Shown here: positions 11,801 through 16,647 of the stretch, one piece after another
Numbering within the stretch: position 1 is the first letter of the stretch
How the letters are laid out: every line of letters starts with the position of its first letter
Assembly: GCA_023395255.1 (NCBI GenBank)
Contig: JAEWZN010000013.1
Coordinates: 62,001 to 126,000 of the forward strand
Direction of reading: 5' to 3'
Source of the DNA: Deferribacteres bacterium
Lineage (GTDB): Bacteria; Chrysiogenota; Deferribacteres; Deferribacterales; Geovibrionaceae
DNA: 64,000 bases
Position numbers and translations under genes: made by a program
The notes under the pieces: generated by a model
Told to the model about the DNA's origin: nothing
The model's input: the letters and a program-made list of their open reading frames with translations, nothing else
The model's database searches: none

Positions 11801-12208
11801 TTAGCTGGTGAGGGCTTTCAGTACATCTCCGAGGGAAACAAGGCCTATGAGCTCATCGTTTTCTGTTACCGGAAGACGGTGAACATATTTCTCAAGCATT
11901 ATTTTTGCCGCATCTTTAACATCAGCATCCGGGCTTATTGTGAATCTGGGTTCTGACATAACCATGCGCACAGAGTTATCCGTAAGTTCTTTGATGTCAA
12001 TAAGCGGAATGGCATCCGCATCGTTCAGAATATCGGGCAGAGCCATCATAACGTCTGATTCGCTGAAAACACCCACAATCTTTTTGCTGCTGTTAATAAC
12101 AGGAAGTCCTGAAATCTTGTTTGTTCTGAGGCGGAGGATAACCTCTTTTATCGTCTCATCAGGTCTCGCTGTGATGACCTTGGTTGTCATTATCTCTCTG
12201 ATCTTCAA
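11801..12208 (-). CDS. CBS-domain pair protein
   Basis: The 135-residue protein is two CBS motifs and nothing else. The first is MTTKVITARPDETIKEVI through LPVINSSKKIVGVFSESD (residues 7-55). The second is FTISPDADVKDAAKIM through HRLPVTENDELIGLVSLGDVL (residues 85-130). CBS pairs bind adenine nucleotides and report energy state to a partner. It starts 11 bases after the stop of the Acs-like gene and is surely co-transcribed with it. The DUF294 protein upstream carries its own CBS pair, so two CBS sensors surround the acetate symporter. The direct target is unknown. Confidence 0.85.
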   Translation of the reverse strand: MKIREIMTTKVITARPDETIKEVILRLRTNKISGLPVINSSKKIVGVFSESDVMMALPDILNDADAIPLIDIKELTDNSVRMVMSEPRFTISPDADVKDAAKIMLEKYVHRLPVTENDELIGLVSLGDVLKALTS

Positions 12209-12219
12209 ATTGAACTCCT

Positions 12220-14097
12220 TTACATCTGCATTGCTATATCTTTAAGCAGATCGCGGAGAATTACCCCGTCGGGCGATTTCGGCAGTGTCCTTGTGAATCT
12301 TATTTCACTGGGCAGAGCGATTTCACCGATTTCTTCAATAATCCGCTCTCTTAATTCTCTGACAGTGGTGTCGTGATAGCTTTCATCTATTTCTTTTTTC
12401 AAAACGCTGAATGCAATAAGAGCATCCCCGCGTTTCTCATCGGGAATGCTGACCACGGCGCAATCTTCAACGTTGTCGTGTGTTTTTATAGCTTCTTCAA
12501 TCTCAATCAAGCTGAGCCTTTTACCGCCCAGGTGGAGAACATCGTCCATCCTGCCTTTTAGGGTGAGATAACCGTCTGAATTGATTTCGGCCGAGTCTCC
12601 TGTTTTGAAGAATACATTATTATTATAAGATTTCCAGTAAATTTTTTTATAAGTGTCATAGGAATTATTTATAGTTCTGCACAGTGACGGCATAGGCCTG
12701 TCCAGAACCAGAGCGCCCTGAGTGTCCGGTTCCGGAAGTATTTCACCGCTGGCGCTGTTGATTATCTTCACCGAAACTCCCGGAAGAGGTTTTGCAACCG
12801 TGCCGGGTCTGCATTCCTCATAACCGGGTATGGCAGACGCAATCGCGCCTCCGGTCTCGGTAATGGAGTATATGTCGAAAAGGGCAGCGTTATAGTTGCC
12901 CAGTGCTCTGGCTGTCCACTCCCTGACATCGTCTGTCATTTTCTCTCCTCCGGTGGCTATCAGTTCAAGGGTGTCGAGCTTCATATACTTCTTCTTTTTT
13001 TGCGCTGCGTTCATAAGGGATTTCAATATTGACGGACGGGTGTATAGTTTGTTTACGCAGAATTTATCGCATATGTCGTAGAATCTGTGTGCGTTTTCCA
13101 TGTCGATGGTGTCTTCAAAGACAAGGATTGTCTCACCTGCCATGAGGGGGCCGTACACAAGATAGGAGTGCCCGGTTATCCACGCAATATCCGCCGTGCA
13201 CCAGAAAGTATCCGTGTCGCGCGCATCAAACATCAGCAGATACGAGAAATAAGCCCAGAGAAGATAGCCCGCAGTGTGGAAAACAAGCGCTTTCGGGTCT
13301 TTCATGTTTGTTGAGGTGTAAAGCATAAACATGGGGTCTTCGGCGCGGGCAAATTCATGCCCCTGATTTTTCGCTATGGAGTAGTGCTCATCACTGATGA
13401 GATCATGAAACCATATATCCCTGAGCGGCTTCATGTGTACCCTTTTGGATACCCGCTCCACAACTATGCAGTACTGCGGCTGATGGTCGGAAATTATCAG
13501 AGCGTTGTCCAGCTTGTTTTTCAGGTTCTGGTTAGCGGTGACAGTTCCGTCAGCGGTGATGATTACCTTCGGGCGGCAGTCGTTTATTCTGTCCGCCAGA
13601 GAATCTGTGGAGTAACTGGTGTGATACACAATATGCACTGCGCCGAGCTTAACACAGGCAAGCATTGAGATAATAAGCTCAGGTATATTGGGAAGATGAA
13701 GCAGAACTTTGTCACCTTTTTTGAGTCCGAGTTTTTTTAATGCGGATGCACATTTTATTATCTCAGAATAAAGGGACTGATATGTATAAACCATCTGGGA
13801 GTGATCCGCGCCTTTCCAGATGATTGCCGCTTTATTTTTCTTTGTGGTATTAAGATGTTTACCGAGAATATTCTCAAGCGGGCAGAGGGTTCCGTTCTCG
13901 TAATATTTCGGCGAAAATTTTTCCCCCCAGTACAGGGAAGTGTATTCCTTCTCCCATACCAGATATTTTCTGGCGATATAGTCATGAAACTTCTCATAGT
14001 CTCCGCTGAGGGAGCGCAGTTTATCCATCTCCGCCTTATCAAGAGAATGTCTCTGGAAGTTTTTGCAGTTTTCGGCCAGTCTCGAATAAATGGACAT
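12220..14097 (-). CDS. Acetyl-CoA synthetase-like protein with degenerate catalytic motifs
   Basis: This 625-residue chain aligns by eye along its length with acetyl-CoA synthetase. Acs landmarks are clear: FWCTADIAWITGHSYLVYGP near 290, SITETGGAI near 410, FKTGDSAEINSDGYLTLKGR, and a hinge GRMDDVLHLGGKRL. Two motifs essential for adenylation are altered. The glycine-rich P-loop (YTSGSTGxPKG in Acs) reads YTSTNMKDPKA at residues 260-270, losing its glycines. The A10 motif (PKTRSGKIMRR in Acs) reads PKSPDGVILRD, with V612 where the catalytic and acetylation-regulated lysine should be. The frame is open and clean, so this is not ordinary decay. It may be a pseudoenzyme that senses or regulates. 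GAGGTG precedes the ATG. The CBS gene follows in the same operon. Confidence 0.8.
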   Translation of the reverse strand: MSIYSRLAENCKNFQRHSLDKAEMDKLRSLSGDYEKFHDYIARKYLVWEKEYTSLYWGEKFSPKYYENGTLCPLENILGKHLNTTKKNKAAIIWKGADHSQMVYTYQSLYSEIIKCASALKKLGLKKGDKVLLHLPNIPELIISMLACVKLGAVHIVYHTSYSTDSLADRINDCRPKVIITADGTVTANQNLKNKLDNALIISDHQPQYCIVVERVSKRVHMKPLRDIWFHDLISDEHYSIAKNQGHEFARAEDPMFMLYTSTNMKDPKALVFHTAGYLLWAYFSYLLMFDARDTDTFWCTADIAWITGHSYLVYGPLMAGETILVFEDTIDMENAHRFYDICDKFCVNKLYTRPSILKSLMNAAQKKKKYMKLDTLELIATGGEKMTDDVREWTARALGNYNAALFDIYSITETGGAIASAIPGYEECRPGTVAKPLPGVSVKIINSASGEILPEPDTQGALVLDRPMPSLCRTINNSYDTYKKIYWKSYNNNVFFKTGDSAEINSDGYLTLKGRMDDVLHLGGKRLSLIEIEEAIKTHDNVEDCAVVSIPDEKRGDALIAFSVLKKEIDESYHDTTVRELRERIIEEIGEIALPSEIRFTRTLPKSPDGVILRDLLKDIAMQM

Positions 14098-16272: not shown

Positions 16273-16647
16273 TTATTTGGCGGCTGCTACCTTTTTCTTT
16301 CTGCCGAAAACAAAGGGGTGTGCCTGCTGGCGGAGTACGAAGTCTGCGAATATTTTACCCCAGATTGTTATGCCTGCCATTGCTGACCATTTGTCATAGG
16401 GGTAGCCGAGGGCTACCACGCCGAAGGCGGTCCAGAGAGTGAATATTCCGGCTACAAGGTTTATTATACCTGCATAAGGAGCCCATTTTTTGGGGTTTGC
16501 AGGTGCTTCACCGCGTTTAAGGGCGACTTCCGAATAGTTGTTCTGTATCAGAATACGCCATGCACGGCGGAGCCAGAAAAAGGTTAATGGGAACAGCGCA
16601 AGAAACAGAACCCATGTGAGCGCCAGACTAACGTAAGAATAATGCAT
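16273..16647 (-). CDS. Small membrane protein of unknown function in the symporter cluster
   Basis: I do not recognise this 124-residue protein as a named family. It has a hydrophobic N-terminal segment (residues about 5-27, LALTWVLFLALFPLTFFWL), a basic linker containing RRAWRILIQNN, and one or two further hydrophobic stretches (about 57-80). The basic C-terminus ends RKKKVAAAK. It has no signal peptide cleavage motif and no metal-binding cysteines. It lies between the symporter large subunit and the DUF294 regulator on the same strand, so an accessory or regulatory role with the symporter is a fair guess. A plain -AAGGAG- precedes the ATG. Confidence 0.75.
   Translation of the reverse strand: MHYSYVSLALTWVLFLALFPLTFFWLRRAWRILIQNNYSEVALKRGEAPANPKKWAPYAGIINLVAGIFTLWTAFGVVALGYPYDKWSAMAGITIWGKIFADFVLRQQAHPFVFGRKKKVAAAK

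Follow-up and report, generated by a model that had tools for sequence, protein, structure and literature searches.

A probable pseudoenzyme of the acetyl-CoA synthetase family, conserved beside a two-CBS-domain protein in Deferribacterota

What is the role of a gene whose product has the length and the fold of an acetyl-coenzyme A (CoA) synthetase (Acs), but lacks residues of its catalytic centre? The question is raised by a gene, here called acsL, in a stretch of 64,000 nucleotides of Deferribacteres bacterium (contig JAEWZN010000013.1, positions 62,001 to 126,000; hereafter the window). A first, sequence-only reading of the window had taken the product, AcsL, for a relative of Acs deprived of the P-loop glycines and of the catalytic lysine, possibly acting as a sensor. 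The comparisons reported here indicate that AcsL is probably a pseudoenzyme of the Acs family, in which the catalytic residues have been lost while the gene has been kept by selection, and that it very likely has no acetyl-CoA synthetase activity.

By sequence and by predicted structure, AcsL is a full-length relative of Acs with the Acs fold. The reading frame contains no internal stop codon over its 625 codons, and the product carries the Pfam domains PF00501 and PF13193. Scored against the two acetate--CoA ligase models TIGR02188 and PRK00174 it reached 550.7 and 560.2 bits, under the curated cut-offs of 724.95 and 657, respectively. The AlphaFold2 model, built on a 77-row alignment, had a mean predicted local distance difference test value (pLDDT) of 89.3 and a predicted template modelling (TM) score (pTM) of 0.83, with the P-loop block less certain (pLDDT 68) and residues 523–526 below 50; the top Foldseek matches were the Salmonella Acs structures 1pg3 and 1pg4 (TM score 0.85 to the query). 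AcsL is therefore like the AMP (adenosine monophosphate)-forming Acs in full-length sequence, fold and 12 invariant residues, but it differs from it in falling under both cut-offs and in the replacement of G266, the A10 lysine, R191, the FGG motif, W414 and V386 (these residues are numbered after Salmonella Acs, PDB 2p2b). The alignment to this enzyme pairs TSGSTGKPKG (264–273) with TSTNMKDPKA (261–270) of AcsL, and the catalytic K609 with V612, and it bears out both substitutions as first read.

The first homologue search listed 120 of 1845 matches and gave orthologues partly from named Deferribacterota, including, among the matches listed, Denitrovibrio acetiphilus, Limisalsivibrio acetivorans and three Deferribacter species. 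Residues were compared over 47 AcsL proteins (the window protein included, 4 partial), 10 metagenome proteins constituting a sister group (P0047–P0049, P0052, P0122–P0127) and 169 other listed relatives, termed canonical in what follows. The A10 lysine, essential for adenylation in Acs, was present in 0/47 AcsL, in 8/10 of the sister group and in 169/169 canonical proteins. G266 was replaced by T in 47/47 AcsL and 10/10 sister-group proteins, and was G in all 169 canonical ones. In the remainder of the P-loop of AcsL, T268 was T in 2/47, G269 was G in 2/47, K270 was K in 0/47, G273 was G in 8/47, and K272 was retained in 44/47; the statement that the P-loop glycines are lacking is exact for G266, whereas glycine persists in a few orthologues at 269 and 273. 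The A10 column of AcsL holds 11 residue types (V17, E8, A5, I4, S4, Q3 and T2, with G, N, H and D once each), but the sites around it are constant, K607, G611 and R615 being found in 47/47 each and D610 in 42/47. The Acs-wide features described in the earlier reading proved to be kept, since 12 residues (W309, H313, G387, T416, E417, D500, R515, D517, G524, R526, K604 and G608) occur in 47/47 orthologues; E388 occurs in 46/47. Moreover, in 20 columns AcsL and canonical Acs each have a fixed residue, at a level of at least 85%, but not the same one; H159, T263, G383, H522, D610 and Q624 are among them. Because the neighbours of the A10 site are constant and these columns are fixed to new residues, the pattern looks like a change of role rather than decay.

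A survey of 50 Deferribacterota genomes (E <= 1e-60) revealed AcsL in 24 of them, in one copy each, comprising all the examined genomes of five families (f1, f4–f7); one of these copies (genome G001) is 100% identical to the window protein. AcsL was not found in the remaining genomes of the 50, where only G050 matched, with two proteins at 33–34% identity. All 24 genome copies have T at the G266 site, and none has lysine at the A10 site, which is for instance T in L055 and N in L061, so that the conservation of both substitutions holds in proteins and genomes alike.

The selection acting on the gene was estimated by the Nei–Gojobori ratio of nonsynonymous to synonymous substitution (dN/dS) in seven pairs taken from 10 of the 24 loci, a rough measure as many dS values were near or above 0.8. 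For AcsL the ratio was 0.026, 0.027, 0.028, 0.072, 0.050 and 0.028 in six pairs, the seventh being saturated; for the two-CBS-domain protein encoded with it (see below) it was 0.014–0.070 in all seven. As the neighbour genes in the same pairs gave 0.020–0.103, AcsL is under purifying selection, with a constraint like that of ordinary nearby genes, and the earlier description of a conserved open frame is upheld. We rejected a local variant, decay or a sequencing error as explanations, because the same substitutions are common to 47 proteins and 24 genome copies with low dN/dS. A single frame among the 24 is broken (L062, genome G028), where tblastn returned pieces of 503 and 158 residues, from which the two sites were read separately.

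The sister group illustrates how the two losses could have occurred. Its members (e.g., P0048) share with AcsL the T at G266 and the PKxP motif before the A10 site, each in 10/10, but most of them keep the A10 lysine, and they have further losses of their own, W309 in 10/10 and H313 in 8/10, at positions invariant in AcsL. In a 68-row tree, midpoint rooted and accompanied by a program warning of long branches meeting between sister-group and canonical rows, a single branch set AcsL apart (43 rows, 100/100), and another did so for the sister group next to it (4 rows, 100/100). With G266 gone from all of the sister group and the lysine still present in 8/10, the most parsimonious course would be loss of the P-loop first and of the lysine later, more than once; the two losses, noted together in the first reading, coincide in 47/47 AcsL but mostly not in the sister group. 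A profile search with 21 sequences gave no further pseudo-Acs clade, the 43 new proteins among the 120 rows listed all having a canonical-type P-loop and lysine, although this absence is weak evidence, as the listing also missed P0122–P0127 of the sister group, although the query itself included three of these six.

Which ligand could AcsL still bind? Of the candidates proposed initially (acetate, acetyl-AMP or CoA), CoA is unlikely, because the CoA-site motif F163-G164-G165 reads H-x-S in AcsL (H in 46/47, with one gap, then a variable residue, then S in 45/47) and R191, found in 163/169 canonical proteins, is lost in 47/47. R584 and R194 were dropped as markers of lost CoA binding, being variable in the 169 canonical proteins (R in 57 and in 5, respectively). 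The acetate pocket has changed (W414 to S or T and V386 to G, both in 47/47). D500, R515, R526, T416 and E417, which we take to be the ribose and alpha-phosphate contacts, are all retained, as is G387 of the AMP pocket. D411 has stayed D in 33/47 orthologues and become N in the other 14/47, one of the signs that the nucleotide pocket is not wholly kept. The site of H525 is K or R in 47/47 AcsL; a catalytic lysine relocated to this place was considered, but the idea is weakened by the sister group, in which 8/10 proteins combine a K or R there with the A10 lysine, so that the former would be no simple substitute for the latter.

The metabolic setting is consistent with a protein that is not needed as an acetate-activating enzyme. 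None of the 24 carriers has an Acs over the TIGR02188 cut-off, and among the 50 genomes only G050 has one. AckA was found in 24/24 carriers (over cut-off in 23, and split into two pieces by contig ends in the last), Pta over cut-off in 24/24, and a TIGR03458-like CoA-transferase in 21/24, none of them over the TIGR03458 cut-off of 658.7. Since the carriers have AckA and Pta, and most of them a CoA-transferase homologue, they can, as judged from gene content, activate acetate without AcsL. The CoA-transferase variant is reported as probably functional in Limisalsivibrio acetivorans (PMC9768450), and Denitrovibrio acetiphilus as oxidising acetate through the citric acid cycle (PMC3035293). A second ligase, at 307–333 bits to TIGR02188, occurs in 11/24 carriers; the one scanned was closest to MbcS, and the four that were read (L009, L064, L065, L066) all had the A10 lysine and a P-loop of TSGTTKFP or TSGTTDFP, in which the second glycine is replaced.

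The most constant companion of acsL is the gene of a small protein with two CBS domains (a Bateman protein). In the window it starts 11 bases past the acsL stop, and its AAGGAG ribosome-binding site overlaps this stop by one base. When the 24 AcsL loci were compared, up to 8 kb on each side, the CBS gene directly followed acsL, in the same orientation, in 21 and lay in a divergent operon in the other 3. A search of the 50 genomes (E <= 1e-15) found the CBS protein in 24/24 AcsL carriers vs. 1/26 other genomes. PF00571 is the sole domain found in its 135 residues, and, as read by eye, each of the two CBS domains has kept its S-x-x-D motif across the aligned partners; we presume that this motif signifies adenine-nucleotide binding. 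The symporter is less regular, appearing in 11/24 loci, 9 times near the type of the window and twice as a distant form (36–41% identity), even though 22/24 carriers and 3/26 other genomes have a TIGR03648 symporter over cut-off somewhere. Hence, of the operon context first suggested, the link with the CBS-pair gene stood in 24/24 loci, while the symporter operon was rejected as the general context of AcsL.

Taking the losses, their conservation, the selection and the linkage as observed, we infer nucleotide binding, a complex and an output as follows. AcsL is likely to partner with the CBS protein. The Bateman protein would sense the cellular adenine-nucleotide status and contact AcsL, which would be its receptor or effector; AcsL, too, may bind a ligand, AMP or an acyl-adenylate, to which its C-terminal domain would respond by moving. 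The pair would then tune the handling of acetate or of short monocarboxylates, with the TIGR03648 symporter (for uptake), Ack-Pta and the CoA-transferase as candidate targets. To the whole of this regulatory reading, a conserved pseudoenzyme turned regulator with a Bateman partner, we assign an even chance. A more specific form is tentative, possible rather than probable: these acetate-using bacteria would have made their sole Acs-family protein of this length class into the receptor half of an energy-charge sensor, an obligate pair of dead Acs and Bateman protein that responds to AMP or an acyl-adenylate and controls the uptake or activation of acetate through protein contact, with the sister group as an intermediate.

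The arrangement recalls the AcuB-AcuC-AcsA system of Bacilli. There, according to two papers (PMC13121692, PMC13039410), AcuB is a Bateman-ACT protein encoded beside acsA, which binds adenine nucleotides or diadenosine tetraphosphate (Ap4A) and inhibits the deacetylase AcuC, thereby controlling Acs. The likeness lies in a tandem-CBS protein beside an Acs-type gene (24/24 AcsL loci) and in adenine nucleotides as the proposed signal. However, no ACT domain was found in the 135-residue partner, which is not specifically close to AcuB, AcsL unlike AcsA has no A10 lysine to acetylate, and an AcuC-type deacetylase (PF00850) is present in only 5/24 carriers. The Bacillus AcuABC circuit as such was rejected on account of the missing ACT domain and of the deacetylase count.

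Several observations weigh against the regulatory pseudoenzyme. AcsL departs from Acs at P389, T412, W413 and Q415, presumably adenine-facing residues: the P389 site holds K or R in 43/47, the T412 site I or V in 47/47 and the W413 site Y in 38/47, and Q415 remains Q only in 5/47. It is therefore not certain that AcsL binds nucleotides. Loss of the second P-loop glycine taken alone is a poor marker of a dead enzyme, as the active-looking second ligase of some carriers is without it too in the 4 of 4 read. The CBS partner is nearest in the PDB to MJ1225 (1.7e-22), AcuB chains following at about 1e-9; one genome (G049, 64% complete) has the CBS protein, with no AcsL found; and common ancestry inflates the co-occurrence of AcsL with the CBS partner, as well as with the TIGR03648 symporter. 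In G049 the CBS-pair orthologue (L063:10034-10459) is followed by a frame that is enoyl-CoA hydratase-like, a name given by eye from its start.

AcsL could also be an enzyme with altered chemistry, performing acyl-adenylate transfer or hydrolysis, or ligation with a basic residue elsewhere (K526 or K386) in place of the A10 lysine. The 20 columns fixed to new residues, the strong selection, the basic residues at the H525 and P389 sites and the lack of an Acs over cut-off in the carriers all suit such a function, which we nonetheless regard as unlikely: most sister-group proteins have a basic residue at the H525 site as well as the A10 lysine, the CoA and acetate sites have changed as well, and other acetate-activating routes exist in all 24 carriers. 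It is quite improbable that AcsL is a scaffold or inhibitor without a sensing role, acting through shared subunit surfaces on an active acyl-CoA ligase, for instance the MbcS-like one. Pseudoenzymes often regulate active relatives and 11/24 carriers have such a further ligase, but the other 13/24 show none at that score, so that it could not be the general target, and the CBS partner would be left unexplained.

The relatives of AcsL bear the name acetate--CoA ligase in the sequence sources, and the Deferribacter autotrophicus genome paper gives this organism two acetyl-CoA synthetases besides Ack-Pta (PMC6896113), of which AcsL would be one. If AcsL were an ordinary acetyl-CoA synthetase that tolerates its substitutions, as these names imply, its Acs-like scores and fold would be accounted for. 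We consider this very unlikely, given that both scores stay under the curated cut-offs and that 46–47/47 orthologues have lost the A10 lysine, on which adenylation depends, as well as G266, R191 and the FGG motif. The preferred reading, a catalytically inactive AcsL conserved for another role, would add a family of pseudoenzymes to the ANL superfamily; no description of a bacterial acetyl-CoA synthetase pseudoenzyme was found in the open-licence literature, for the most part judged from search listings. PMC13186404 gave nothing on Acs under the terms looked for, PMC11896075 contained none of five terms, and a search linking cAMP with Acs led to a single review. If true, it would offer a direct test of an ANL enzyme turning into a sensor, with the sister group as intermediate; the current name of acsL genes, and metabolic models using them for acetate activation, would mislead, and Ack-Pta or the CoA-transferase would carry the acetate-activation flux. 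AcsL and the CBS protein are a pair small enough for routine binding and activity assays.

Table 1. Features of the acsL region; positions are those of the window.
Feature	Position	Strand	Basis or remark
AcsL, Acs-like pseudoenzyme (probable), 625 aa, ATG start	12220..14097	minus	Open frame, profile scores, alignment, predicted fold
AcsL P-loop position, residues 261-270, TSTNMKDPKA replacing TSGSTGKPKG	13288..13317	minus	Alignment to Salmonella Acs
AcsL A10 position, V612 codon replacing catalytic lysine K609	12262..12264	minus	Alignment, orthologue comparison
Two-CBS-domain (Bateman) protein, 135 aa, TTG start, constant partner	11801..12208	minus	Domain scan, 24 loci
cNMP (cyclic nucleotide)-binding/CBS/DUF294 nucleotidyltransferase-like protein, 639 aa	14247..16166	minus	Domain scan; adjoins AcsL in only some carriers
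124 aa protein, encoded between the symporter and DUF294 genes	16273..16647	minus	Present in 9/24 loci
TIGR03648 (VC_2705 type) sodium/solute symporter, 601 aa	16756..18561	minus	In AcsL locus of 11/24 carriers

The other genes of the region are listed in Table 1; the 124-residue protein had no Pfam or NCBIfam match. Promoter-like sites numbered 10 against 9.6 in shuffled sequences, and terminator-like sites 13 against 7.6 (standard deviation 2.7). Beyond the window, a gene of about 250 residues, which we take to be DUF169-like, adjoins the CBS gene in 8 of the 24 loci, all in families f5–f7 (L057, L060, L050–L052, L058, L059 and L061), and may be part of the same process as the CBS-pair gene.
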